64,000 bases of DNA, from positions 17,713 to 81,712 of the forward strand of contig JASAMV010005869.1 in NCBI GenBank assembly GCA_030248065.1, written 5' to 3'. The notes under the pieces are model-generated. The model made no database searches, was not told the DNA's origin, and saw only the letters and a program-made list of their open reading frames with translations. Positions 30,601-64,000 of this stretch are shown piece after piece. Origin of the DNA: Rhynchonema sp. JSB1_4. Taxonomy: Eukaryota > Nematoda > Chromadorea > Monhysterida > Xyalidae. Positions within the stretch are counted from its first letter, which is position 1. The number at the start of each line of letters is the position of its first letter. The translations under genes were made by a program, and so were the position numbers.

Positions 30601-33600
30601 TCCTCTCCCAAACAGGATCGCGACGCCCAGCGTCGTGCGAAACAGCGCAAAAACAGTGAAACCACCAAATCACCCGTGCACACCACCAATAATGCCATAG
30701 ACAAAACACCGGACTCCAATAGTATTTCGAAAGACAATTCACCGAAATCTGCCAAAGACACTCCAAAATCCGAAAATCCTATATCGCCAACTGAAACATC
30801 AACCAAGCGTGACTTCCAATCGTCACCGCCTGCCACTACGATGTCGTTCTGGCAGTTGCCGCGTTCTAGACTCCCACCCGTGACTACTGTCGCTAGTGCT
30901 TCACGCACTGAGCAGTCTACGACCACAACTGCTTCCGGCAAAGGCACAGATGGTTTGTGGAGTTTTGGAGTTGAAATTAGGTCGCGGTTGGTCGAGTTTA
31001 GCTGCCCCTCCCACCCCAGCACAGCAAATCGTACCAATTGTGCGATTCTTCCAAGCATTATGTAACTGCGCGTCTTTTTTATGCTGACCTTTGTCGATTT
31101 CTCAATAAAAGATCCAACTTTATAACTGGTTGTTGTTTGATTTCACAATCTTAGTTGCGCCCATGACGTTTCAGAGATCGAGCGTGCTCCGAGTCCATTC
31201 ATCCATGAACCTGTGTTGAAACCGGCGGTGACGAAACCTACTGTTCCATCAACAACGGCCAAAGCTACCGCTGTTACTAGCCGAGTGGAGTTACCGCAAC
31301 CACAGAGTTTATCAACCGTCGTCAACACTGTTTCAACCGGGCCGCCGGTGTCACTGGTCAGCTCCGAATACGAGGCCGAAGACTCGCATGATGAGGCTCA
31401 TTCCACGGCCACGACGCCGGCGCCGGTTGATACGCCCACCTCTACGGCCACTGACCCTCTTCATTCCGAGGACAGACCCACAGCGCCATCGCCAGACCCG
31501 GTACCATCCGATCTCGGACGTGTTGTCGAAGCACCTAGCTCTGATTCTGATCAACTTTCCCAATCAAAAGAAATGAACACAACGCAGACCACTGTTCCGT
31601 GCCTCGACCACTCTTCCTCAACAGCTGCTCCCCAGACTTCTGGCACCATTAACCAGCTACGTGATGGCAAAGGACTGAAGCCGGCGCCGATCGTGCAGCC
31701 CAGACCGACGCCTCGCGCAAAGAAGCAGCTGCCAAAGCCGACCCGTAACCGAAATGTTGCACGCAAAGAACTGAAACGGCCAATAAACATCAGCGACATC
31801 GAATATGATTCTGACGTCAGCTCCGTATCCGCTCATTCCGAGACCGTCCTCACTCCAACTAGCTCAGTTCCCGAGTCCGAGCCCTCCCCGTCGCCTATCG
31901 AGCCTCAAGTAGATGCACCAATCGATCAGCCTACGGAACGTTCAACCCCTGAAAAGCCTCATGTCGATGATGCACTTTCTGTGCAGTCCATTGAAGCGCT
32001 GCAACCAACGCGACCTGCTGAACCTGTCGAACCGGAGGTTGTCGCAGCGCAGCCTGATGCCCCTATCGAACCTCCACAACCCGATGAACCAATTGAGCAT
32101 GCAGTGGTTGAACAGCCTGCCGAAGAACGTGCCGTGACCGAACCTGTTGAGCAGCCCGAAGAACGTGCCGTGACCGAACCTGTTGAGCAGCACGATGAAC
32201 CTGCAAACTCTGAGCAGCACGAAGAATCCATCGAAACTGTGGTCGCTTCGCAACCAGAACAACAAGTCGAACCAACGAGCAAGCCAACAACGCCAACGTG
32301 TACCTCATCACAGTCCCGAATGGCTGTCGTGTCTCCATTCAATTGTACGAGTGCTATGAGCACCACTAATGGCGCCACGCCCGATGTGATTCCTGTCCCT
32401 GACACGTTAACTGCAACACCTGACCACGCCATTACACCGGCGCCTGTTGTGGAGACGCAACCGCCAATAATCGTTGAACAACCCCAAGAGCCAGATCGCA
32501 CCGACAACAAACGATCGACTGATAATGTGACCGTCAGCGACTCATCGACACCGAAACGATCAAAAGACTCCGACCCATTTTCGGTTGTATCGATCGGAAA
32601 TGCAATGTTGGGCTCCACATGGTCAAAAAAAGACACGCTGGCGCTGGTCAGTGCTCCATCGACGTCAAGACAACCGGTGCCACGCGAGTCTGTCCGACCA
32701 CAAATCCGTCCGCCTGATGCATTCACTGAGCCAGCAGTAACCGAGCCACAGTCGTTGACGCCCGTTGTCACTACTACACCAGCCTCTGATCCTTCTCCAA
32801 CCACAGTGCGAAGTCAAGAAGTTCCTCTATCTCGATGCAGTACGATTACGTCAGCGGTTACTCCGGTGTCTCTGAATCTTGCGCAATTTTCAGTCATGCC
32901 TCCGGAGCAGTTCCGCGATATGTGGATGGGTTTTATGGAACAGTGGCAACAACAAATGGTCGATTACATGACAGTATCTGGTGAACCAATCGATGACCAA
33001 CAAAGTGTTTACCTACATGCGTCAGACCGACCCACTGATCATTCGAGCAGGCATGACCGATCCCGCAGACATGATCGTTCCCATCGTCGTCGTGAGGAGA
33101 ATGACAGAAAACGCTCGCACAAAGGTCGCCCAACCATTGGTAGGGCACATCAGAGTGTATCATCGAAGATGAGCGATACGCCTGAATCGGCTGCTTCGCA
33201 CAATGAAGAGCATGAGAGACGACGAGAGTCCCCCAAAAAGTGTCGCCAAGAGTCGCCAGAAACACATAACCTGTCACCCGAAAAGCTTACTATTGAGTCA
33301 CCCGAAAAGCGTCCTAATCAGCCACTTGAGAAATGCAACGAATCACCCAAAAAGCAGGAAGAGAAGTCACATCAAAGCAATCGCAACGAATTCTCTGATG
33401 CTAGTCGCAGCAAAGCACTTGACAAACGTCGCAACGGGTCACCAATAGGAGATCCCAAGGAATTACAAGCAGAAAGGTCCAAGGAACTGCCAACAGATAG
33501 TCGTGGAGAACTACGAGAAGAATTTCACAAGAAACCGCCAGCTCATGGTTCTCTTGAAAAGCGCCGCAGTCGTTCGCCGGAAAAGCGCTTGGATGATTCG

Positions 33601-36600
33601 ATCGAAAAACGCGATGTTTCATCTGAGAAACGTCAGATCGACCCCCCAAAACAGCGGCAGCAATTGCCACATGCTGAGCCCGTCAAATCTGACGCCAACC
33701 ATGCTGCTCACAGAGATATGAAGGAAGAGGCAAAGAAGGAACATACAAAAGACGATTCACGCAAAAGAAGGCTTGATAAAATCAAAAAAAGTTTGCTACT
33801 GCCGTTGCCCGGTCACGTTACAGCCAAGCTGAAGAAATTAGAAGGCAAGACTGAAAGGTCGCAAATCGTCGAGAAGAAAGTCGGCATTCCTGAAAAATTG
33901 TCGATCGGTCCAGAAGAACAGGAGCGGCTTGTGCTTGCTACTGAGACCCCACTACCGCCTAAGATACTTGAATCGAACATTCACAAAGTAGCGGAACAGA
34001 AGGTAGCAGGAATTATTTCGAAAATTGACAAGGATGTGGTGCAGTCGTGCAAGAGCGCATTCGAAAATGCCTTGCGAGAAGTGTCACTGAAAACGCCAAT
34101 GCCGCCACCAAGCAAAATTCCTGAAAGTCGGGGAAGAAAAGGAGATTCCGGTCTTCAGGGAGCGGAACATATCATTCGTACGCCTTCAAACAAAAGTGAT
34201 ATGGTTTCTAAGGCTCAAGTCCAAGACTCCGAGCATGTAGAAAGCAAAGAGAAAGACGGCGCAGCTTTCGACAGACCAAGACCCGTCAGTCGAATGGGTG
34301 TAAGCATGACGATCGGCAAAATGCCAGGAATGAAACCAAAACCAAAGACTGGCCTTGACACGTTCAAAGCTCATAATATTCCGTTGCCATCGGAACCGCA
34401 TCCATCCAAATCTGAAAAGAAAAAGCGGAAAGAAGAAGGAAAGCATTCAAATGATTCCGATAAACGCGCTTACTTGACGAAGGAGCAAGCTTCGACGAAA
34501 CATCAGTCCACCATTGTTACGAGCACAGCAGCAACTTCAACTGTCGCGTACGGTCCTTCATGGCCAACAACGACCGAGAGCACTTATGTGAACTTGCCTG
34601 CTCCGTCGGCGACAAGCGCAGCTGCTCCAACAGTCACAGTGACCCAACAACAGCTTTATCCGATTGTGTCACTACCCCCACCTCCACCTCCTGCAACTGA
34701 AACGGTTCAGCCACAGATTAGTGCTGCACCGCAGATGTACACTCAAGCTACTGGTGGCTATACGCAACAGCAGTGTGAAGCTGCGTGGTCGCAGTATTAT
34801 GCAATGTGTCAACAGTCAGGCTATCAATATCAATACGGACAACAAGGGCATGGTGACACTGGCAGTTACAGCGCTTGGCAGCGCCCTTACGATTCCGCAT
34901 ACGAAAACACGTATAACAGTGCAATGATGCAAACTGGAGAAACGCAGACTGCTAATCGGGTTCCTTCGCCGCAGAAGACACCGCACTGGTCACATCAGCA
35001 AAATATTCATGCACAACCCTCACAAACTGGCCCTCAAGGTCCGCTGATGCAAGATGGCCCGCGTGGTCCACCTCCACACGGTGGTCCACGCGGACTTCCC
35101 ACACACGATGGTCCTCGGGGCCCTACGATGCAAGATTGTCCACGTGGTCCACCTCCACAGGGTGGTCCACACGGACTTCCCGCGCACGATGGTCCCCGAG
35201 GTCCTCCAACATACGATGGCCCGCGTGGTCCTCCACATGGCGGTGTACGAGGTCCCCCAGCACACGATAGTCCGCGTGGTCCTCCTCCACGCGGCGGTCC
35301 ACGGGGTCCCCCTGCACACGACAGTCCACGTGGTCCTCCTCCATGCGGTGGACCACGAGGTCCTCCTTTATACGGTGCTCCGCGTGGTCCTCCCATACAC
35401 GACGAGCCACGAGCACCACCACATGATGGCCAGCAAGGTTCTCGTGCATACGATGGTTCCCCACAAGGTCCTCCTGCACACGATGGACCACCACGAGGTC
35501 CTCCTGCATATGATAGTCCACGAGGTCTTCCTCCACGCGGTAGTCCACGTAATCCTCCCCCACGCGGTCCTCCACGCGGTCCTCCTCCACGCGGTCCTCC
35601 ACCACGCGGTCCTCCTCCACGTGGTGGACCACGCGGTCCCTCTCCACATAGTGGTCCACGTGGTCCTCCGCACAATGGTCCACGAGGTCCCTTTCCAATC
35701 CAGGATCATCCACGCGGTCCTTATCCATATAACGGCCCACGAGGTCCGCCATCATACAGTGGGTCACAAGCTTATCCTGTGCACGATGATCGAGGTGACT
35801 TTACACCTGAAGATTCCCCTCATGACTTCTCTTCCAGCAATGGTGTTCCAAGTTCACAGCCATGGGATGAAGATTCAAGTGATCAAACGACGTACAGCGA
35901 ACAAGATATGAATTCACCGATGAGTCAGGATTCGCAACTGTATACGAGTTTCACTCCCAAGTCACCTTCGTGGCCACAACCGCGTGTTCCTCGTTTTCCA
36001 GGTCCGTCACATCCACGAATGTATGGTCCACCAAGACCACAACATCCCAGATTTCAGCCACCGTCACCGGTTTCACTCTTGGACCTGAGATTCCCAACTA
36101 GCGAGGTCGCTGACAGTGACAACCAACACGAAGTGCAACCGCAAGAAGAAAAACCAATGGATCGTCATCAAGAACATGTATCTGAATGCGATGACTACTT
36201 TGTGCCGTCAGGAAACAGTAGTGCTTTTGCGCCAACACTACCACCGCAATTGCTTCCAAAGAAGCAGCCAAGTAACAACAGAAAAGAGCAAGATGAAACA
36301 CCACAAGAAGTAGAAGTCCAGAAACCGGCAGAAGAAAAAGAAGCAGCGCCTGCACCAATTTCTGATATTCCAAAGGTTCCAAGTAAGCCGCGTTCGTTTG
36401 ACAGTCCGCCAGTGAAAAAGACAGCCAATGATCTGAGCAAATCGGAAGCGCCAGCTCCTGTTGTGAGCAAGCCACAAAAACCGCAGGTCTCAACACCCAG
36501 CAGCGAAAGCGACATGTCCATATCCACTGCTATAACTACTTCCCATGATACCCCACCGGAGCGAAACATAAATGCTATAGAGAAAGCATTGTTGCAACGT

Positions 36601-39600
36601 GCTAGAGAACTATCCGCCGAAGCTGCCCAACAGTCTCGAGGTCAGCTCAATAACCGTTCGACCACTGAGGCCCTGCAACGTGCCCGCCAATTGGCACAAG
36701 GTAGCGATCGTCCAACCGAGCAGTTTGACACCAATCCCAGGCCACCTTCGGATTACGATTCACCTTTTCGGCAGCCAGACTCTCCAAATAGATTTCAATC
36801 ACCGAGTACAGAACGAAATTCGCCATTCTCTGGGTCTACTCGTGGACAGAGAGGTTTCAGTCCAAGAGGAACAAGACCGCCCAGAGGGTTCAGTCCAAGA
36901 GGGCCTGGTCCAAGAGGTTTCGAGCCAAGAGGAGTCGGACCGAGAGCGCCCCGAATATTTGGACCACTAGACAGCTCTCGGGGGCCCAGTCCAAGTAGCT
37001 TCAGTCCGCGTGGATCTGGTCCCAGAGGATATAGCCCCAGGGGTCCCGGTCCCAGAGGTTTTACCCCCAGGGGTGCTGGCCCAAGAGAATTCTACCAAGG
37101 AGGTCCTAATCCAAGAGCGTCCACCCCAAGGCAACCTGGTCCAACCGACTACAGTCCGAGAAACTTCAGCCCCATGGATCCCAGTACAAGCGACTCTGGT
37201 TCAGAAAGTGCTGGCTCCAGACGTTCTGATTTTGGGCCACAATCGACTATGGGGCGCCCAGAATTTCAAACTCCTATTGATGACTGCAGATCCCCGTTTC
37301 GGTACGATACAGCCGATGCGCCACTTCAAATGCCTGCCACACGGCCGAAATTCGATCCGCCAAGTAGTGATTGGCAACCTATCTTTGCGGATGGCCGTCC
37401 TCCGCAAATGGCCCCGCCAGTCTCTCGACCGGTGCATCAGTCAAGTAATGTAGCGCTGTTACCACCGCCCACCGCTGCACCCATGAGCAAAACGGTAGAC
37501 AGTGATGCGGACATTGACATCGACTTCAATCAGCCGGTATACCCAGGTGCAAGAGCTATGGGACAGTCACAATCGCTTGGCCCCAATGCAAGCAGGCAAA
37601 TAGGGCAGTCTCAGCCGATCGGATCCAATCGAACCAAGCACATTGGTCAATCACAACCAACTGGACCAAGTACAAGTACGCGGGATCGATACGTAGATAA
37701 TCCAAATGTGCCGAGTTTTCCGCCGAATATGAGAATGTGGAACCAGCCTGCCGCACCCAGGTACGACCGACCGCCACCTCAGATTGACATGCGCGAGCAA
37801 AGCATTCCGCCGATCGACATGAGAGTAAAGGAGCCGACAGCAACAGCTCCATTCGAGCACCATTGGCCGAGTCTGCGCGAAGCAATCGCAACGATCACTG
37901 GCGGTATGATGCGATCATCGGATACTGTCGCTTCAAAGGATACTGTTGAGGGTGAGTGCATGCGGACCGTCCTAGTCGGTTGCGTACATGGGCACTGTAT
38001 GTCAACGAACGACCTTCAGTGAACTTTTCTACTTTAGGTCGCGACGCACCCAAACGCACTACTTGATGTTTCATTCGACAACAGGTGCCCATGTATGGCT
38101 TTCGATTGACTTTCATTCACATCATTAACCGTTCTTCTTACCAATGTACGTCGGTTTCAATCGTGTAGCGTGGAACGGTTCCGGTTACTCACAAAAACCC
38201 TGTCTCTTACTTCAAAGGCAAATGCCCAAATTTACAGCCCATTGAATTATTATCGACCTTGGACGGACTCCGGTTATAATTAGTCCGTGATTAAAATTTC
38301 GTTTTTATGTCTGCTAAACAGCACAGCATCGCTTTAAAAGTCGTTATATCTTGTATTGTGTAAAAGGTTCGTTGTAACAACTGGAAGCGATGCTGTGCTA
38401 CTTGTGAAATTTTTGATCGTCACTGATCGGACAATTTATTCTGCACTTACCGCCTTGGACAATTGGTTTACTGTGATGTATGGAAACGCAATTACCATTT
38501 GGAAAATTGGTAAAATCACTTCGGGATTTCGACGCAGAAAGGGAAGTTGCAATACAAGAAAGATCAATTTAAAACAAGCATTCGAAATAAAGATGCCTTG
38601 GCGGCAATGAATTGTAACACAGATGAAGTGAACGAAATGGAGCACACGCTCGTATGATGAACATAAACTGCGTTGTCCATCAAATACCCGTGTTGGGAAT
38701 TATGTGCTGATAAGACGGTATGACGAGAATGCTAAGTGGTCCATCCAAGCCAATTTAATGCAGCCTTCAAGACAAAAAGTGGTCTTTGTCCACACGGATG
38801 CTTCAGTTTATCTCAGTCGGTACCTGACCACTTACCATTCTCCACCTTTGCTTTTTATTTTATGCGCGATTCCCCCTTTAAAAGTGCGCAATTGGTACGA
38901 TTTCCTGTCCCAAATATGACTTAGTGGACAGTTACCTGAACTCGACCAGCAAAGGAGTGTCGCAAAAAAGAAAACCAAGGTTTTCCTTCGGGTATCATTT
39001 TTGCACAGGGGGTGCTTTTCTCGTGATGTTTAGCTGTCAGACCACAGATTAACGGTTAAAGCTTCTTTGTGTGGAACCTGTGACGTGATGGTGTCCAGGT
39101 TCACTTCGCCTGCTGCGACAATGGGCCGGCAGGCATCTTTTATATTCCGTATGGGTTGATTGCCTGGTTTTTCTGTTGTCCGGACGGCGCCAAAGAAAGT
39201 CGTGCCGGTTTCCTGTGGTCAGATGGCCAACTCACATGAACAGCGTCACAGTACACAATAATGCCCGAAAGAAAGTGTTGATTTTGCGTTTGGGTCACCC
39301 TTCGTGACGTGGCCAGACATGGTGCCTACCTAGTATTGTATTCTGATCGTAATGATGGCTACCAAAGATCGTTTGTTTCATTCAGTAATCTGTTACGAAT
39401 TATCGTTTTTGCCTTAATATGCTTGGAAACGATCCAATCAATGCTCCCAGCACACGCTAAGTATCTCAGTCTGACATGTAACCGATATGACGATGTTTCA
39501 GTGCCGATCACACTGTTCCTGAAGCCGACCGATCCGCCAACGACAACAAATAGAGTCGTGACCACCGAGGTCATCCAACAACAGCAACCGGTGTATCCGC

Positions 39601-56414: not shown

Positions 56415-56442
56415 GTAAGTAGTGTAGTATTGTATTCTGGGG

Positions 56443-56582
56443 GGTTGTCGTATACGACAACCAACCCCAGAAGTTAGTGGTGCGCTCACCGCTGTCTTGT
56501 ACGACACTACAGAATGATGTCTTGTACGACACTACATAACGGTGTCTTCCACGAGGGCCAAAGCTGTCATATACGACAACTG
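56443..56582. promoter_or_regulatory. GTCGT/ACGAC palindrome cluster 1
   Basis: A perfect 20-bp palindrome GGTTGTCGTATACGACAACC lies at 56443-56462. Further sites or half sites (TTGTACGACACTA twice, TGTCATATACGACA) follow up to about 56580. The cluster lies 115-255 bases upstream of the ORF at 56698. Confidence 0.75.
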
Positions 56583-56612
56583 TATAAGCGCGATGTAGGG
56601 CTTTCTGAAATA

Positions 56613-56625
56613 GAATATTCTGGAA
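56613..56625. promoter_or_regulatory. Heat-shock element (three units)
   Basis: GAATATTCTGGAA is a perfect GAAnnTTCnnGAA trimer, the binding site for heat-shock factor. It lies 20 bases before the TATA box of the next gene. Confidence 0.6.
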
Positions 56626-56644
56626 AATAAGGGGGGAAAATAAC

Positions 56645-56652
56645 TATATAAA
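56645..56652 (+). promoter_or_regulatory. TATA box
   Basis: TATATAAA, 46 bases before the ATG at 56698. Confidence 0.65.
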
Positions 56653-56697
56653 CGGGCATAATAGGCAATGTTGTTTCATTGTTGTCATTCAGTGAAA

Positions 56698-57123
56698 ATG
56701 AACTGCAAGCAACGAAAAGAACAGCATTGGCTAGATATGCTCTTTATTGAGCACGTGAGCAAAAAAGTTGCCGAAACCATTACCGACATGAGCTGGAAAC
56801 TGTGCCATGGATGTCAGAAGAGCCTGGGGCCCAGCAGTGAACATCACCTGTGCAGTTGTGCACCATCCATCTACCTTATACGCCACGCAATGGAAATCGG
56901 TGACGCCACAGACATCACGGTGGAGTGGGAGCAGTTCAGTCGTATCGCCTTGAAATCTGATGTTTCATCTGAAGGTCTGCATGCCTGGTTCGTGAACTAC
57001 ACGTCTCTGAGTGAATACCTGGCCAGAAAAGCAGTGAAATGTGGCCGGTATCTGAACGAATTCTACCCTGAATGTGTGATTGAACCCGATATCGACACTT
57101 TACCGGTCGACCTGCCGTATTAG
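56698..57123 (+). CDS. Unrecognised Polinton-associated protein, 141 aa
   Basis: A single open frame. The start is the first ATG after the TATA box (MNCKQRKEQHW); the frame is open a little upstream but without ATG. It contains CHGCQ and, 13 residues on, HHLCSC, a small Cys/His set that could bind zinc and recalls short Cys-His proteins seen in other Polinton-like elements. The rest is helical and charged. It has its own upstream control block (palindromes, heat-shock element, TATA) and a histone-type stem-loop 30 bases after the stop. The function is not known. Confidence 0.65.
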   Translation: MNCKQRKEQHWLDMLFIEHVSKKVAETITDMSWKLCHGCQKSLGPSSEHHLCSCAPSIYLIRHAMEIGDATDITVEWEQFSRIALKSDVSSEGLHAWFVNYTSLSEYLARKAVKCGRYLNEFYPECVIEPDIDTLPVDLPY

Positions 57124-57152
57124 CGACCTCGGTCGCCTTACTCAAACCCAAC

Positions 57153-57168
57153 GGCCCTCTTCAGGGCC
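57153..57168 (+). terminator. Histone-type mRNA 3' stem-loop
   Basis: GGCCCT-CTTC-AGGGCC followed by ACCACA and preceded by CCAAC: the six-pair stem, four-base loop and ACCA tail of replication-dependent histone mRNAs, with one loop base off the consensus. It lies 30 bases after the stop codon, the usual histone distance. A 30-base block around it is identical at 59597-59628. Confidence 0.85.
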
Positions 57169-57550
57169 ACCACATAAAAACCATGCTTTTTATTTATCTC
57201 AGAACACCGGGAAAACTGTACTAATAGAGCGAATCATCACCGGATTGTGACACAATACCTGGAATAATACACAGAAAACACGTCTTTTTTGTAATATCTA
57301 TAATTTTTTCTTTTTAATACAATAATTAGACAAGTAATCTAAATATTTATGTAACCCATTAAAATATCCTCATCATTAAAGCTTTAAATGTTCCTGAATT
57401 CATATCCCTGAGACTAAATGAGCAAAAAAATGAATAATCGGCAAAAATATCATCTAGACTGAAACATCACATCAAACAGTCAATAATACCCGAAAACAAT
57501 AAATTCCTGAGCAAACAATGCTCCATACAGGAGGAGAGGGAAAAACAAAA
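57169..57550. other. Spacer after the 141-aa gene
   Basis: AT-rich, no gene seen. The minus-strand gene ends at 57551. Confidence 0.5.
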
Positions 57551-58691
57551 CTACTTCTTATTGCCGCGTCGTTTCTTTGGACTAACTTTTGCGGCTTTCT
57601 TGGCCCTACGAGCGCGCGTGGACAGTTTATCAGTTTCTTGTCGCATCTTGCTGGCGATTATGAAATCGGCCCACAATCGTTCGGATTCCGAAATCAACGG
57701 CTCCAAATAATCCGCAAGTCCACGAATTGATTTGATTTGCTTGATCATTTCTATGGCACATTGCGATAGTTGCTTGCTGAAAAAATATTTATACTAAAAG
57801 AATGGGGCGGAACATGTGTCGCATACGACACTTTTAGCAGTATTACTCTGCCGTGCGTGAGAAACTGAGTCAAAACCTGTGTCGTACACGACATTTTTTT
57901 ACACCACTATTCTGCCGTGCATGAGAAACGTAGTCAAAACATGTGTCGTACACGACAAATTTTAACACAACTATTCTGTCGTGCGTGAGAAACGGAGCCA
58001 AAACCTGTGTCGTACACGACAAATTTTAGCACCACTATTCTGTCGTGCGTGAGAAACAGAGTCAAAGCTTCTGTCGTGTACGACACTGTATATAGCAGTA
58101 GAAAAAGCACCCACCTCACGGTCAGCAGATTAGTACTGGATTTCGAGCGTTTGATGGTCATCGGGGGTCGCTCGCCGCCGCACAACGCCGTGAATAGGTC
58201 GGTGTACGAGATGCCGCCAACATGTACGATTTCCTTGTTCGCGTTGCAAGCCCCTAACGCTAACAAGGTGGAGGCCGATCGATGCGGGAGCGCAAAATAT
58301 TGCTGAAGAAACGCGTTGGAAAGTATGATGGTAAACATAAACCAAACAAGGCAATTTTTACCGTGAAAGGCGGTGGCAGCAAGTCATGCGAGGCAAGCAT
58401 TCGGATTGTCTTGATTTCGGGCGATCCGGCTTGATTCAACTGAAAGTATCAAAAAACGTGTATATTCACACAAAATTACTGAACAACTGAAAATATCTCA
58501 CCGTCATGGCACTGATTTCGCCAACACCATGAGTGTATTGCACATGGATTTGAGCCCATCCGTCCGGGAACGGTACTTTACCTTTCGAGATCGCTTTGTA
58601 CCTGAAGAAAAAAGAAACGTTAGTTTTTAAGCGATATAATTAATATCTTCCCACCCATAAAATTTGCTGCTACGGGTATCTGTCTGTCGTG
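57551..58691 (-). CDS. Unrecognised spliced gene in the Polinton-like region
   Basis: On the minus strand, five segments join in phase: from an undetermined start to 58644 (ends SSKFYG), 58601-58502, 58439-58362, 58302-58115 and 57776-57551. The introns are 40-63 bases except the last, of 338 bases, which carries the palindrome cluster 57815-58090. The protein has about 220 residues: WAQIHVQYTHGVGEISAMT, then IRMLASHDLLPPPF, then HVGGISYTDLFTALCGGE, a helical stretch, and a lysine-rich tail (KKAAKVSPKKRRGNKK) that fits a nuclear protein. The first exon runs into the 58684-58950 palindromes and no start codon is certain. I do not recognise the family. It could be a captured host gene or the element's own regulator. 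Confidence 0.6.
57815..58090. promoter_or_regulatory. GTCGT/ACGAC palindrome cluster 2 (tandem, in an intron)
   Basis: Five palindromes, TGTCGCATACGACA then TGTCGTACACGACA (three times) and TGTCGTGTACGACA, sit in about 64-base tandem units that also share CTATTCTG(C/T)CGTGCGTGAGAAAC. They lie in the last intron of the minus-strand gene. Confidence 0.8.
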
Positions 58692-58955
58692 TACGACTTT
58701 CGCCGTTGGGCGAATCGTGTCGCAAACGACATTTCTGTCGTGTACGACTTTCGCAATTGGGTGAATCACGTCGCAAACGAAATTTCTGTCGTGTACGACC
58801 TTCGCAGCTGGGAGAATCGTGTCGTAAACGACAGATATGTCGTGTACGACTTTCATAGTTGGGAGAATCGTGTTGTACTCAACAGAAATGTCGTGTACGA
58901 CTTTCATAGTCGGGGAAATCGTGTCGTATACGGCACAATCGTGTCGTAGACGACT
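58684..58955. promoter_or_regulatory. GTCGT/ACGAC palindrome cluster 3 (divergent promoter)
   Basis: About eleven sites. The main one, TGTCGTGTACGAC(T/C)TT, recurs every 51 bases, alternating with a second type, GTCGNAAACGACA. Tandem units are about 51 bases. The cluster separates the minus-strand spliced gene from the TATA box of the + strand gene at 59015. Confidence 0.82.
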
Positions 58956-58971
58956 TTATGCTAAAAACAAG

Positions 58972-58979
58972 TATAAAAG
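58972..58979 (+). promoter_or_regulatory. TATA box
   Basis: TATAAAAG in the context AAGTATAAAAGGAGC, 43 bases before the ATG at 59015. The ORF is open further upstream, but that part overlaps this box and cannot be translated from this promoter. Confidence 0.8.
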
Positions 58980-59014
58980 GAGCTAGTTTTTTCGGGGAAA
59001 ATCATATCGTCGAC

Positions 59015-59572
59015 ATGTCTGCCTCCGACGTCATTCGAAAGTTCAAGACCAAGTACAACACCTACGTGAGCCTGTTCCGAGGAGAACCTGGCGGAACTCG
59101 AGGATGGAGACATGTGAAGAAAAACCACTGGCCAGACACAAAAACGAACCACCGGTGCACTTTCAAAGCAGGAATTGACACTTTAAGTCTCGTTGAAATC
59201 GCAGTGCAAGCTGGTGTAATGGGCACTGACGTGAGGCAGCAAACAATACGTTTGGTCTGTCATTTCCCGTTTGTGGTTGGCTTTGATCACATGCGTAAGA
59301 AGGCCTGTCACTGTGTTGTTGTCGTTATTTCGTTCAAAACGCAGGAGGTTATTACCTTCTACCCTGAGCCATGTGGTGTTGGCAGGGAAACGAAACGATG
59401 CAAATACAGTGCATTTTTTACGCATGGCCACTACGAGAACGTGTCACTAAAGTGCCTGAAATATCATCTTGTGATCGGTTCCGGATTGAAAAAGTGTCGT
59501 GAATGCAACTGTAAGTGCTTCAGGTTTACACCGGCAGCAGTCACCAGTGCGGAGAAGGCGTTCTTACGCTGA
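59015..59572 (+). CDS. Unrecognised Polinton-associated protein, 185 aa
   Basis: A single open frame with the start set by the TATA box (MSASDVIRKFKTKY). It has a basic N-terminal part, a hydrophobic strand region (CHCVVVVISF), and a Cys-rich end, KKCRECNCKCF, that may bind metal. It is not similar to any Polinton core protein I know. The palindrome cluster lies directly upstream and a histone-type stem-loop follows 35 bases after the stop, as for the gene at 56698, so both genes seem to be under the same control. Confidence 0.65.
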   Translation: MSASDVIRKFKTKYNTYVSLFRGEPGGTRGWRHVKKNHWPDTKTNHRCTFKAGIDTLSLVEIAVQAGVMGTDVRQQTIRLVCHFPFVVGFDHMRKKACHCVVVVISFKTQEVITFYPEPCGVGRETKRCKYSAFFTHGHYENVSLKCLKYHLVIGSGLKKCRECNCKCFRFTPAAVTSAEKAFLR

Positions 59573-59606
59573 AACCTGGTCTGCGGACCACTTACCCTAA
59601 CCCAAC

Positions 59607-59622
59607 GGCCCTCTTCAGGGCC
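59607..59622 (+). terminator. Histone-type mRNA 3' stem-loop
   Basis: Same GGCCCT-CTTC-AGGGCC stem-loop with ACCACA tail as at 57153, 35 bases after the stop. The bases after it, AGAAAACCATGG, also match the first copy (TAAAAACCATGC), and may be a downstream processing element. Confidence 0.85.
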
Positions 59623-59662
59623 ACCACAAGAAAACCATGGCAACAACAAATTGAGTAATACT

Positions 59663-60073
59663 TTATTTATTATCCGACACACAAACGTTACGGTTTCCAC
59701 AAGATGTGCAATAGTTCACAGTTAGAGACACTTGAGGTACTAACAATAAAGTACAATCATCAGGCTTATCACTCAAATTTTTGTCCTTGCTTTTAATCAC
59801 TTTCTCCTCTTCTTTCGTCTTCTTTGCAGCTGGAAATTCTGCACCAATCTCAGTATTCGAGCGTTTCTTCGTATTCGGGCCAGACGGAGGGATTGTGACT
59901 GTGACTTTCTTGACCTTTTTCGGGTTTTTCGACTCCTTGGCATCTTGCGGTGGACCATTTTTGGTCTCTGGAGTTATCAGAAGAGCTTCTTGCCGTCTGC
60001 AAACGGGCGGTGGACGGTTATCTGGCTCCTGGTTTCCAGTTAGCGAGTCCAGAAAAGCGTCAAAGTCAGTCAT
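59663..60073 (-). CDS. Unrecognised lysine-rich protein, 136 aa
   Basis: Starts MTDFDAFLDSL, an acidic-hydrophobic helix. It then has a long Pro/Lys-rich disordered part with nuclear-signal-like KNPKKVKKV and AKKTKEEEK, and ends with CTSCGNRNVC, a possible zinc knuckle. A TATA box (TATAAATA on the minus strand, 60108-60115) lies 35 bases before the ATG. It shares the heat-shock promoter with the gene at 60241. The function is not known; a small regulator or DNA-binding protein would fit. Confidence 0.6.
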   Translation of the reverse strand: MTDFDAFLDSLTGNQEPDNRPPPVCRRQEALLITPETKNGPPQDAKESKNPKKVKKVTVTIPPSGPNTKKRSNTEIGAEFPAAKKTKEEEKVIKSKDKNLSDKPDDCTLLLVPQVSLTVNYCTSCGNRNVCVSDNK

Positions 60074-60107
60074 AATGAAGAATGAGCATCAAAGCAATGG
60101 GGGGCGA

Positions 60108-60115
60108 TATTTATA
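60108..60115 (-). promoter_or_regulatory. TATA box of the 136-aa gene
   Basis: TATAAATA on the minus strand, 35 bases before the ATG at 60073. Confidence 0.65.
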
Positions 60116-60132
60116 CTATCAGACAGTTAATC

Positions 60133-60185
60133 TTCCAGAAAGTTCCGTAACGCAGCGGAACATTCCAGAACATTCTGGAAACTTC
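60133..60185. promoter_or_regulatory. Heat-shock element array in a divergent promoter
   Basis: 60158-60185 has six perfect alternating units, GAA/TTC every five bases (60158, 60163, 60168, 60173, 60178, 60183). 60133-60145 adds TTCCAGAAAGTTC, three more. This is a strong heat-shock factor site, placed between the genes at 60073 (minus) and 60241 (plus). Confidence 0.85.
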
Positions 60186-60240
60186 TAGGCTGTGATACAT
60201 TCTGTTTGAGAGCTCACTTTTGTTTTTTTTATAATTCATT

Positions 60241-60900
60241 ATGAAATTTAATCCTGACGACCTTCTTTCAAATGTTGGATTTCCCTTGATCAAACGACGG
60301 TATTACAATCGCAACCTTCCACCTACAAAGTACCCACACGCACTCGGTGTTCTGTGGAACGAACTTGTCAAGATGGTCAGTAACTGTCTCGATTGCCGCC
60401 TCCGATACACGAAAGAAGACAAGCAGGAACTCATCCGAAGATGTTTTCTGGAAGCCTACAGACGAGATCTGTCCGCATTCATGGAAGCATACATCACAAC
60501 AATGGTTAAGGAATGCAAACCACATCACAACTACTTGAATCCGGCAACACAAAAGTTCGAATATCGTAACGATTTGGACGGAGCCAACAATTTCCGTGGG
60601 ATAACGGCTTACGAATACATCGCACGTGATCTCTGCCAAAAGCACACCGAGAAAGAATACTACTACATATCGCCTGACTTTGCCGGCTTGTTCTGGGCCA
60701 AATGTCCGCTTCGTGACAGAGGCATCAAGCTCAACCGTATTTTAACCTATTTATCTGAGGAACTTAATTTAAAGTACTGTCACGTGAACATAACGGGAAA
60801 TGATATACTCGATTTTATGACAAGACGTGATCCATTTGAGGCTATCTGGAACGAATGGCATGACGAGTTCAAAACAACATTGTTTGAGCACGAGTATTAA
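60241..60900 (+). CDS. Unrecognised Polinton-associated protein, 219 aa
   Basis: A single open frame from ATG at 60241 (MKFNPDDLLSNVGFP). It is soluble-looking and rich in aromatic and basic residues (LIKRRYYNRNLPPTKYP; CLDCRLRY; YYYISPDFAGLFWAKCP). No membrane segment or known motif is seen. Its stop overlaps the stop of the protease gene, which runs the other way, by three bases. The upstream heat-shock array suggests stress-linked expression. Confidence 0.65.
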   Translation: MKFNPDDLLSNVGFPLIKRRYYNRNLPPTKYPHALGVLWNELVKMVSNCLDCRLRYTKEDKQELIRRCFLEAYRRDLSAFMEAYITTMVKECKPHHNYLNPATQKFEYRNDLDGANNFRGITAYEYIARDLCQKHTEKEYYYISPDFAGLFWAKCPLRDRGIKLNRILTYLSEELNLKYCHVNITGNDILDFMTRRDPFEAIWNEWHDEFKTTLFEHEY

Positions 60901-61388
60901 CCTATTTGCCTTATCATTTCGATGTCTATTATTTGCGTGTCCTCGTTGTATAATCCGTTTATCATTGCTGTCACAATCCTGTCATTCTCGTGCGTGTTTT
61001 CCGTGAATAAATTGAGGAAGTGATGAAACGGTAGTCCTTGAGCTCTTGCGTGCAAAAAGAACACAGTGTACTGACCACAAGTGGTTGCCACTGTACCCTG
61101 CAATCGTTTTTGCGAGCAATTCCACGAGATACTGTTCTTGTTCAGATACGTTTTGAAGACACCACTCGGTGTCCTGCCGTACGAACAGAAGTAGTCAGCG
61201 TAACCCTCCTTGTTGATAAAAATAGCGATCCAGTGTTCACCTGGATGATCGTGCGGCTTTGTATTGGCGATCAAACAGCAAGGCCACTTTTCGATCTGTG
61301 GTAGTTTATTGCACGGAAACACACCCAAAAACACTTTTTTGATCACAGGGTCACTGAAACATATATTGGATAACTGATTGGAATCCAT
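60897..61388 (-). CDS. Adenain-type cysteine protease (Polinton PRO)
   Basis: 163 residues. The catalytic set of the C5/Ulp1-like fold is present in order: His52 in GEHWIAIF, Asp65 in ADYFCSYG, Gln97 in RLQG and Cys104 in TTCGQY, with the Gln-Cys spacing of seven seen in adenovirus protease. In Polintons and adenoviruses this enzyme cuts capsid precursors during maturation. The ATG overlaps the stop of the capsid gene (TGATG), so both are probably on one transcript. No break is seen in the frame, and the gene looks intact. Confidence 0.85.
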   Translation of the reverse strand: MDSNQLSNICFSDPVIKKVFLGVFPCNKLPQIEKWPCCLIANTKPHDHPGEHWIAIFINKEGYADYFCSYGRTPSGVFKTYLNKNSISWNCSQKRLQGTVATTCGQYTVFFLHARAQGLPFHHFLNLFTENTHENDRIVTAMINGLYNEDTQIIDIEMIRQIG

Positions 61389-62713
61389 CAAACACTGTAG
61401 TCAAAGTATACAGTTCTATTACGATCAATCATAACAAGGTTGTCAAATTCAGCATAAACAATCATTTCAAGACCTGGCTCTTTTATAGCCTCACTGAACT
61501 CACAATGAATGGTTGTGGAACCCTCTTTCAAAAGTTCCCAGTGTGAACCTTCGGACTGTTCGGCGGTAAGGTCAAAAGCAAACAGACAGGAACAGTTGAG
61601 AAAATCTTCATAATCAAGCCAGTTACCATTATTTTTTTCAGTCATGCCTAATGTTTCACACAATTGTACATACGGCCGAACAGCCAATTTTTTTGAGAAA
61701 TCCATTTTCAACGGTTCTCTTGGGAATATTTGCCCTCCTGCATGAATGGAAATTTCAGACACGTTGTTGGGCTTGAAGTAAAAAGGAGATTTTTTCAAAG
61801 ATCCAAAGAAATTATCACTTTGAACGAAGCCTACGATCAAACGACGAGGAATTTGTCCATCAAAAACTGGTGTAGTTGGTGTATTTTTTCTCCCAGGACT
61901 GATATGCATGTTTCTCATGGCAACTCGGCGTATAGGGTATTTGGCTGGTGCCCTTTGCAGTGCGGCCTCTATGCCTAGGTGGACGGTATTGAGAAGTTGC
62001 ATCTTCTTAACATACCAAACCATGTCTAACACCTCAATTTTGTAAGGCAGAGCATTATCTTTGAAGCACATTAGACAGTATTCATCAGAATTCCTGTGTA
62101 GTTCAAGATGAATGGGACAATTGCTGAGTAGAACTTTATCAGACATGAATAGATCAACGTGCAACGGAGCCATTATCTCAACGACTGCACTGCCCTTAAA
62201 CGGTTTTGATCTGTGTATAAATCCAATGTTAACGTCAGACTCAATCATGTGAGCGGGTGTATCTTTATTGTACAAAGAACTTTCCAATATCGTGTTCTTG
62301 GCTTCCCATCCGTAGTTCAATTCGGTTTCCATCATTGCTCTGTAAGCGTATAGAGGTCCACTGTCAAAAGCAAGTTTTCCGTTCAGACCGACTTTCACTT
62401 GCTTGAAAAATGTTTTACCAATCATGTTTATCGGACCAACCAACGGGTCGGTATCGTCACCTTCGGTAACCAGCGGGGTGCCATCTTTATGAACAATTCT
62501 TATCTTCATGTACACATAATTGCATGCCATATGAACGTAGTCCGGACCTGCTGGAATGGTGAATTGATAAGGTCCATTTGATGTGATGCTGTTAACGGCA
62601 TGAGCCGTATACCAGTAACTTGATTCCACAGCTGCTTGGGTTGGAGGTACAGAGAACAGGTCCAGGATGGAATCTGATGCGGGAGCACTGTTTTTATCGA
62701 TCAATTGAGCCAT
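61388..62713 (-). CDS. Polinton/adintovirus major capsid protein
   Basis: 441 residues in one open frame. The N-terminal LDLFSVPPTQAAVESSYW is the typical start of the double jelly-roll capsid proteins of Polintons, and residues around MIGKTFFKQVKVGLNGKLA fit their first barrel. It forms the hexon-like shell of the particle. It lies between the pX-like and protease genes with one-base overlaps on both sides (TAATG and TGATG). The frame is complete, which suggests recent activity. The assignment comes from family features, not a search. Confidence 0.85.
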   Translation of the reverse strand: MAQLIDKNSAPASDSILDLFSVPPTQAAVESSYWYTAHAVNSITSNGPYQFTIPAGPDYVHMACNYVYMKIRIVHKDGTPLVTEGDDTDPLVGPINMIGKTFFKQVKVGLNGKLAFDSGPLYAYRAMMETELNYGWEAKNTILESSLYNKDTPAHMIESDVNIGFIHRSKPFKGSAVVEIMAPLHVDLFMSDKVLLSNCPIHLELHRNSDEYCLMCFKDNALPYKIEVLDMVWYVKKMQLLNTVHLGIEAALQRAPAKYPIRRVAMRNMHISPGRKNTPTTPVFDGQIPRRLIVGFVQSDNFFGSLKKSPFYFKPNNVSEISIHAGGQIFPREPLKMDFSKKLAVRPYVQLCETLGMTEKNNGNWLDYEDFLNCSCLFAFDLTAEQSEGSHWELLKEGSTTIHCEFSEAIKEPGLEMIVYAEFDNLVMIDRNRTVYFDYSV

Positions 62714-63171
62714 TATTTGAAGTAGACACCCAGTTGATCCTGTAGCCGTCGACGTTTGGCACCTCTGAATGATTTACGTTTGCCTCGACGTCCTTTTATA
62801 CTCCCTCGTTTCTTGGCCCGTTGACCCGTCGTTGTTCTTTTACCCAGTCGTCCACCAGCCTGTAGTTTTTGTGATGCTGCTGTGAGCAGTGCTGCAGCTC
62901 CTTTTCGTCCCCGTGACTTTGCAGATTCAGACAGAGCTTTCCCAGCCACAAGATCCGATGCAATTTCAGCCCCAGTTTTTAATGCTTGTTTGCCAACGGA
63001 ACGTCCTGCTGACTTAGCAATTGGTAACAGAGCACGAAATATACTTCTGAAAATATTTCCCAAACCAGAACCTCGTTGATAAGGAAGGCCATAGAAACCA
63101 AAACCATGCTGTTGCTGTTGAAAGTACTGAGCCCAGTAACGTTCAGAGTCCGGAATAAACAAGACCCTCAT
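62713..63171 (-). CDS. Basic pX-like core/minor virion protein
   Basis: 152 residues. The N-terminal part is Gln/aromatic-rich, then comes a GSGLGNIFRSIFRALLPIAK helix, which is typical of adenovirus pX/pVI-related proteins of Polintons. A long Arg/Lys-rich tail (GQRAKKRGSIKGRRGKRKS) would bind DNA. Its start overlaps the end of the minor capsid gene by 29 bases in another frame. Confidence 0.75.
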   Translation of the reverse strand: MRVLFIPDSERYWAQYFQQQQHGFGFYGLPYQRGSGLGNIFRSIFRALLPIAKSAGRSVGKQALKTGAEIASDLVAGKALSESAKSRGRKGAAALLTAASQKLQAGGRLGKRTTTGQRAKKRGSIKGRRGKRKSFRGAKRRRLQDQLGVYFK

Positions 63172-63970
63172 TTTTACGTCTAAAATGCAATTTCAGTATG
63201 GTTTTACCATAGGCGAATGCTATTGGCTTATCTTGATCTGTTTTCAAAATGATTCGAACCGATGAAAATTCTTTCTTAAGTACTCCCACGTAGTGGGGGG
63301 CAATGAAGGTCCGTTCAACTATCTGACCGTAATTACCTGACACAGGAACGGTGCGGAGTAAGGGTACAGAAGTATCTCCAACGATCTGAGGTTCACAAAG
63401 GTCACAGTAGATATAAATGCTTTCCAAACCACCTCGTAAATCAGGAGGGTAGCGTGCAATAACTGAATCTTGAAACATACGGTCTTGAAACCCCATTATA
63501 TACTGTAGTTGAGGTGATAGAACAACACCAAGTTTATGTGTGTTATCAATATCAATTCCAAACTTGTTCCTGATCCTACCATAGTGAAATGTTACAGCTT
63601 GCTTTACAATCTGTCGTTCTCTAGGTTTCAACTTATCAATAGCTAGGATCAATGAACGATAAAGCTCATCTGCACTTTGGTAGTACCCAGGGTCAAGTCG
63701 AATAACGTACGTTGGAGGCGTTATGTTTTTCGTTCGAGGATGTTTGTAATCAATGACCAGGATTTCATTATTGTGCATATTATTCCACTCCACTTCTGAG
63801 TTCAGATTATTCCAACTGAAGGGGTACAAAATCTCAACGAGAGCAACGTCCCATTCACCGTTTAGGCGAATACTCTGGGGCAAATGCACAAGAAATTCAG
63901 ATGAAGTGTTATCCTTGGAATCTCGGCTCCTGGTGTTCGACGGTAAGGTGATGTAGAAGTCACTTTTCAT
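63143..63970 (-). CDS. Polinton minor capsid (penton-type) protein
   Basis: 275 residues. It starts MKSDFYITLPSNTRSRDSKD and continues through GEWDVALVEILYPFSW, the hallmark opening of the minor capsid protein found next to the major capsid gene in Polintons. It is the first gene of the four-gene minus-strand block. Its promoter must lie in the last 30 bases or beyond the window. The frame is complete. Confidence 0.75.
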   Translation of the reverse strand: MKSDFYITLPSNTRSRDSKDNTSSEFLVHLPQSIRLNGEWDVALVEILYPFSWNNLNSEVEWNNMHNNEILVIDYKHPRTKNITPPTYVIRLDPGYYQSADELYRSLILAIDKLKPRERQIVKQAVTFHYGRIRNKFGIDIDNTHKLGVVLSPQLQYIMGFQDRMFQDSVIARYPPDLRGGLESIYIYCDLCEPQIVGDTSVPLLRTVPVSGNYGQIVERTFIAPHYVGVLKKEFSSVRIILKTDQDKPIAFAYGKTILKLHFRRKNEGLVYSGL

Positions 63971-64000
63971 GGCGACGTTTTAAAGTAGGATTCGGCAATA

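Follow-up and report, generated by a model that had tools for sequence, protein, structure and literature searches.

Replication-dependent histone genes are described in PMC1924863 (2007) as the only animal genes known for hairpin-ended mRNAs without poly(A). According to the same source, the system of Caenorhabditis elegans is that of CDL-1; its histone mRNAs end 3-6 nucleotides (nt) past the hairpin and mostly lack poly(A), and an AATAAA that lies just downstream of the histone genes is not used as a rule. Here we analyse a 64-kb stretch of DNA (the window; 64,000 nt) from the nematode Rhynchonema sp. JSB1_4, in which two genes of a Polinton-type (Maverick) element very probably end, judging from their sequences, in a functional copy of the 3′-end signal that replication-dependent histone genes of the host use. 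The window is the end of contig JASAMV010005869.1 (C3594 in our numbering) in a genome of 203.9 Mb, and the contig stops where the window stops.

In a literature search we met no case of a virus or transposon whose mRNAs end in the histone manner, and the original prediction, made from the letters of the window, had likewise known of no such case in Polintons; the coverage of Polintons and adintoviruses in this search was incomplete, so an earlier report may exist. PMC7786107 gives a Histone3 match of 14.7 bits that lies within a coding region of a coronavirus, and we do not count it as a case. In a preprint on double-jelly-roll viruses (PMC11071308), a term count found no mention of histones.

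Two histone-type gene ends in the window

The sequence GGCCCT-CTTC-AGGGCC-ACCACA is found at 57153-57174 and at 59607-59628 of the window, both times on the (+) strand and, as had been predicted, behind a gene. The two genes and the parts of their ends are as follows.

56698..57123 (+): gene 1, 141 aa, of a diverse family with the patterns CxxC...HxC and W...F...RR...WF; 51 matches in its own genome (family alignment A3)
57123..57136 (+): upstream hairpin GCGAC-CTCG-GTCGC of gene 1, starting with the G that also ends the stop codon; from fold and covariation
57137..57152 (+): spacer CTTACTCAAACCCAAC of gene 1, in which AACCCAAC is common to histone genes
57153..57168 (+): histone-type 3′ stem-loop, site 1; from an RF00032 match of 34.3 bits and the same 16-mer after H2A, H2B, H3 and H4 genes
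57180..57185 (+): downstream element ACCATG of gene 1, 11 nt past the stem-loop
59015..59572 (+): gene 2, 185 aa, Cys-rich; 45 matches in its own genome
59577..59590 (+): upstream hairpin TGGTC-TGCG-GACCA of gene 2; from fold
59591..59606 (+): spacer CTTACCCTAACCCAAC of gene 2
59607..59622 (+): histone-type 3′ stem-loop, site 2; RF00032 match of 28.5 bits, under the gathering score
59634..59639 (+): downstream element ACCATG of gene 2

Both sites are real, but the distances of 30 and 35 bases after the stop that had been given for them are each one too long: on recounting, the gap from stop to stem is 29 bases at site 1 and 34 bases at site 2. The 30-base block that was said to be identical at the two sites was located at 57145-57174 and 59599-59628. 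That the carriers are not histone genes also stands, as neither gene matches a Pfam family at E 0.1. A scan of the window for the 16-mer stem-loop with up to three mismatches finds these two sites and no third, where 0.20 are expected; on this count, and on a reversed-pattern control that gives 0 in the genome, a chance origin of the sites was rejected. The Rfam model of the histone 3′ end (RF00032), which the original prediction had named as its check, divides the sites: site 1, with 34.3 bits (E 3.7e-6 over the window), reaches the gathering score of 34, but site 2, with 28.5 bits (E 1.2e-4 in 14 kb), falls short of it. The 55-nt gene ends fold better than shuffled sequences, with z scores of -5.2 for gene 1 and -2.9 for gene 2.

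The element ends resemble the histone 3′ end of RF00032 in their 6-bp GG...CC stem, in a 4-base loop with U in the third place, in their AAC and ACC flanks, in the position of the stem 28-51 nt past the stop and in a conserved element 11 nt downstream. They differ from it in standing on non-histone genes of a virus-like element and in having an extra, covarying upstream hairpin, and some elements have tandem changed stems (C3049) or the loop CATC (C2581 and C4342). With the histone ends of C. elegans, as PMC1924863 describes them, they share C as first loop base, a long conserved block around the hairpin and a short downstream element; the loop is CTTC here and CTTT or CTTA there, and the downstream element is ACCATG here and AATCC there.

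The same signal on the histone genes of the host

The H2A, H2B, H3 and H4 genes of this genome end with AACCCAAC-GGCCCTCTTCAGGGCC-ACC, so that their stem-loop is GGCCCT-CTTC-AGGGCC, with AACCCAAC before it and ACC behind. The comparison with histone genes of the same genome, also named as a check, therefore bears out the identity of the signal and accounts for the one loop base that was called different: since the core histone genes end with the same stem-loop, the seemingly odd base is the host's own form. This loop base C and a Cys in H4 are nematode-like traits, which we take as hints only; the exact nematode SL1 was not found in the genome.

The distance from stop to stem in the histone genes is 47-59 nt (18 distinct sites). 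An exact site follows 39 of the 55 matches to PF00125; the 16 without one are all partial and exon-like, which fits intron-bearing variant histones. The histone on C2436 is an H2B-like protein, and none of the histone sites read follows an H1 gene. In one histone cluster (L149, C1192:16710-17500), a histone-type end has no histone frame ahead of its site at C1192:16769, and CGTACCC there replaces CTTACCC. Genome-wide, RF00032 gives 70 matches, 27 of them at or over the gathering score, and only one of 14 control genomes (Lactococcus) gives a match, which lies below the cut-off. The genome also encodes a partial SLBP RNA-binding domain (positions 30-69 of 70; 50.3 bits against a cut-off of 27).

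Distribution of the signal in the genome

A search of the 203.9-Mb genome for the 19-mer GGCCCTCTTCAGGGCCACC gave 133 occurrences, as opposed to the 0 of the reversed pattern. Our census covers 131 listed exact sites (the other two are outside the lists), mostly with 650 bases upstream read. Histone clusters account for 52 of these sites (39 after a PF00125 match, 8 after genes read as H4, 1 with no histone frame and 4 unread) and genes assigned to Polintons for 44, all of them read (24 assigned by homology to gene 1 or gene 2, 13 by a shared contig and 7 by protein resemblance). A Merlin-type group holds 18 sites, 3 behind transposase frames, one of which is truncated, and 15 in derived repeats. 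The remainder consists of 11 sites in a second family resembling miniature inverted-repeat transposable elements (MITEs) and 6 elsewhere without a long frame. MITE-like repeats thus total 26 sites, two of which (C2971 and C3429) may be transposase ends, being transposase-like in the 151 bases read. At none of the sites read did we see the signal behind a gene that is evidently cellular and not a histone gene.

The Polinton sites lie 28-51 nt past the stop, on the sense strand, behind 38 distinct open frames. None of the listed exact sites was found in antisense orientation within 200 nt of the 3′ ends of the 51 gene-1 and 45 gene-2 matches, or ahead of their starts. In the Merlin-type group, two transposases match PF12762 with 58.5 and 52.4 bits, and the signal follows 46-47 nt past their stops (L075 on C1224 and L108 on C5304). 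PF12762 is the ISXO2-like transposase, a name that we take to denote the Merlin type of transposon. These transposase genes carry the same full signal as the Polinton genes, although the two kinds of element are unrelated, and a signal restricted to Polintons was rejected on this ground. Three copies of the repeats, viewed in 3-kb context, are about 550-680 bp long and have terminal inverted repeats. One set of MITE-like repeats (L009, L010, L019-L026 and L028) carries the signal with loop TTTC in place of CTTC; the copy that was measured has about 580 bp and inverted ends.

The original prediction would have been refuted by a block that is just a repeat scattered outside gene ends. This is true of part of the sites, since 26 MITE-like ones and 6 without a long frame, about a quarter of the 131, are not at clear genes. 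At the gene-linked sites, however, position and orientation are constant, and we rejected the idea of a merely scattered repeat. The signal is confined neither to Polintons nor to one class of mobile DNA; it is also on Merlin-type genes and in MITE-like repeats.

A tripartite signal, and its conservation

The signal common to histone and element genes is tripartite: an upstream hairpin comes first, the stem-loop follows it, and some 11 nt further on stands the downstream ACCATG. A typical histone end reads TGGAC-UUCG-GUCCA, CUUACCCUAACCCAAC, the stem-loop, ACC and ACCATG. In histone genes ACCATG is found at all 20 distinct sites, at an offset of 11-15 (18 of 18 on a coarser grouping), and in element genes at 27 of the 38 distinct Polinton-gene sites in open frames, at an offset of 9-12. 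The upstream hairpin of host histone genes is of UNCG type and stands 16 nt before the stem-loop (L002, L012, L027, L029, L115 and L116); other elements have longer, unrelated hairpins in this position (L087, L090, L015 and L036). An extra hairpin that is present on host histone ends and covaries among element copies may belong to the processing signal, and perhaps this hairpin and the ACCATG of the host histones are both parts of that signal beyond the description in RF00032.

Covariation was examined in two alignments. For the upstream hairpin (A1; 62 chosen rows, 51 distinct), all five pairs are changed on both sides, covariation lies above all 500 shuffles, and the proportion of paired cells is 78.4%, with bulged or longer hairpins scored as misses. 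For the stem-loop (A4; 15 chosen variants in 11 distinct rows, picked to include variants), three of the six pairs are changed on both sides and 100% of cells are paired; none of 500 shuffles is as high for pairing and covariation, and pairing falls to at most 59% when the partner is slid by 1-3 columns. In both alignments the shuffle counts are inflated by the relatedness of the sequences. The stem variants include GGTCCT/AGGACC and, in tandem on C3049, GGTCTT/AAGACC and GGCCCA/TGGGCC, while U in the third loop place is constant in the 15 aligned variants. Tandem double stem-loop signals were seen at L138 (C3049:20610-20980), L086 (C3049:5730-6543), L053 and L057, and the two copies in L138 bear different compensatory stems.

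The stem-loop follows 36 of the 51 gene-1 homologues: 19 have the exact 19-mer, 8 a tail ACA and 7 a GGTCCT stem, and the last two are those on C4847 and C3049. Among the 45 gene-2 homologues it is found in six, on C3594, C5431, C3574, C3049, C2581 and C4342, and no gene-2 homologues are closer (47-100% identity) than these six and some broken pieces on C5071. In a comparison of the window copy of gene 1 with six homologues, identity was 0.30-0.48 at third codon positions, 0.89-1.00 in the 27-nt core of the signal and 0.26-0.43 in the next 100 nt; for the one gene-2 homologue compared, the values are 0.43, 1.00 and 0.33, respectively. Gene-1 subfamilies that are only 38-56% identical still keep the signal. 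Because it is kept in diverged gene copies, we regard it as a selected histone-type 3′-end signal on Polinton genes; it is long established and selected in the gene-1 family and in a single group of gene-2 copies, though not invariably. The claim that the signal is kept on purpose is thus sustained by its retention in diverged copies and by compensatory changes, but is limited by the six of 45 gene-2 homologues that have it and the 14 of 51 gene-1 homologues that do not.

No homologue of either gene was found in the protein database and no relative outside this genome, gene 1 has no convincing Pfam match, and no relatives of the two genes were recovered from IMG/VR or PHROGs. The stem-loop pattern has seven matches in IMG/VR, none of them behind a histone or gene-1-like frame when the longest upstream frame is considered. 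LxCxE-type motifs were discarded, with two loose matches among the stem-loop-gene proteins scanned.

Several results weigh against a working histone-type signal on these genes. The 14 gene-1 homologues without it comprise one subfamily of 5 copies, 6 distant homologues and 3 fragments (one tail is cut by a contig end); one gene-1 end, on C5576, is degenerate, with loop CGTC; and two gene-1 subfamilies keep the stem-loop and have lost ACCATG and the ACC tail. In the gene-2 family, the stem-loop is absent from 18 homologues whose tails were read, one more tail being too short, and the remaining 20 have no listed exact site within 200 nt. A measure of further pair types is no better than in shuffles, of which 399 (A1) and 454 (A4) of 500 are as high. 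U7 snRNA gave no Rfam match in the genome, and the controls of that search gave none either. Finally, an AATAAA lies 123 nt past the stem-loop of gene 2 (at 59745), and gene 1 has ATTAAA at 190 nt and AATAAA at 330 nt past its stem-loop, so these genes could undergo ordinary polyadenylation. Among sites with enough sequence, AATAAA occurs within 200 nt at one of 19 element sites, which is gene 2 of the window, and at four of 15 histone sites; as it is rare at both, this count says little.

Alternative explanations

The signal might be processed by the host and yet benefit the elements as a compact, poly(A)-independent gene end, or as an escape from the silencing of polyadenylated RNA, instead of through S-phase timing. 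The surroundings of gene 2 would suit a compact end, as it stops less than 100 nt from a convergent gene (59663-60073) whose minus-strand AATAAA overlaps its own stop codon, and the presence of the signal on some genes and not on others is what a local gene-end device would predict. However, gene 1 is outside any tight convergent pair, and 15 gene-2 homologues were read in a similar convergent layout without the signal. We find this explanation doubtful, though worth serious consideration.

It is highly improbable that the block is instead a feature of the DNA, such as a protein-binding dyad or a site of recombination or replication, whose likeness to the histone signal is accidental. MITE-like repeats do carry it without a long gene, and since both hairpins are palindromic, their covariation would suit DNA dyads equally well. 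A DNA site would not, however, be expected to keep a constant sense orientation 28-51 nt past stops, with no listed antisense or upstream sites at the 51 + 45 homologues; moreover, the match to histone ends extends to the unpaired flanks (AACCCAAC and ACC) and to the spacing of ACCATG, and the third loop base is U in all 15 aligned variants. Scarcely credible is a recent, useless copying of histone gene ends into the elements by recombination or gene conversion, for although histones and most element genes read share an identical 27-nt core, and the upstream hairpin TGGTC/GACCA is found in both, the similarity ends at the signal, the stop-to-stem distances differ (28-51 nt in elements, 47-59 nt in histones), the stems GGTCCT, GGTCTT and GGCCCA and hairpins such as GCGAC, CGTCAC and GATTAGA are in no histone gene read, and the gene-1 subfamilies keep the signal at 38-56% identity.

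A possible mechanism

If genes 1 and 2 end with a working histone-type signal, the host's SLBP and histone-type cleavage machinery would form their mRNA ends a few bases past the stem-loop, with ACCATG taking the place of the histone downstream element, and the mRNAs would be without poly(A). The transcripts might then accumulate and be translated mainly in cells that are copying their DNA, so that the proteins of the element would be supplied when replication machinery and nucleotides are at hand. This suggests that the elements borrow an expression route normally tied to DNA copying. The original prediction had likewise proposed a tie to host DNA replication, for genes that it conjectured to be early. 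For the broader proposal, that at least two unrelated classes of selfish DNA (Polintons and Merlin) have taken over the histone 3′-end code, with poly(A)-less, SLBP-kept and S-phase-locked mRNAs timing their replication and movement, we see an even chance. Virus-like elements with the complete signal would open to mobile DNA a new route for coupling its expression to host DNA replication. They would also supply SLBP substrates from nature in which stems and loops are changed, and a means to test directly whether non-histone genes acquire S-phase control from the signal alone.

The Polinton-type element

The element that carries the two genes, and its other features, are given below.

56417..64000 (strand not assigned): Polinton-type element, from its left end at about 56417 to the contig end; the right end is beyond the contig
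56447..58955 (strand not assigned): clusters of the palindrome GTCGTNNACGAC, 12 sites, the tandem units measuring roughly 64 and 51 nt (repeats D1, D2, D5 and D6)
60897..61388 (-): adenovirus-type cysteine protease; PF00770, 22.7 bits against a cut-off of 21.3
61388..62713 (-): probable double-jelly-roll major capsid protein, 441 aa; 250 database homologues; no stem-loop behind it
62713..63171 (-): small basic virion-like protein, 152 aa, with an Arg/Lys-rich C-terminus; on C3049 its counterpart lies next to the capsid gene
63143..63970 (-): conserved element protein, 275 aa; 84% identical to a counterpart adjoining the integrase gene on C3049

The left end is placed by copies on C5431 and C5071 (in two arms), whose match to the window sets in at 56415-56417 and not before. 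As the original prediction had it, the carrier is Polinton-like. Its assignment to the Polinton/Maverick class is well supported by the predicted protease, by the capsid-like protein and its homologues, and by an integrase beside counterpart genes on C3049. On that contig an rve integrase (51.1 bits) adjoins counterparts of genes of the window element, and genes 1 and 2 carry the signal there also; in the window copy, which the contig end cuts, no integrase was seen. A polymerase-like piece on C3049 was noticed by eye and has no Pfam match. The window's capsid protein itself matches no family, and its relative P0026 matches PF21738 (double jelly roll) with 25.5 bits, below the cut-off of 27. 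From gene order only, we take the 275-aa protein to be probably a minor capsid or penton protein. Polintons/Mavericks and adintoviruses have in common with this element and its relative an adenovirus-type protease, a capsid gene (here with a probable double-jelly-roll relative) and an integrase; what sets the present element apart from them is the histone-type ends of its accessory genes.

The 16-mer scan with up to three mismatches found no stem-loop after the capsid-side genes of the window. All 12 of the GTCGTNNACGAC palindromes in the window fall within the element, either ahead of gene 1 or in the interval between it and gene 2, and are possibly binding sites for a regulator of the element or of the host. 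Elsewhere in the window, at 31573-38022, there is an open frame of 2149 codons with a low-complexity start and no Pfam family at E 0.1. On C5071 (L041 and L042), a short copy of the element of about 6 kb has gene 1 in both of its inverted arms.

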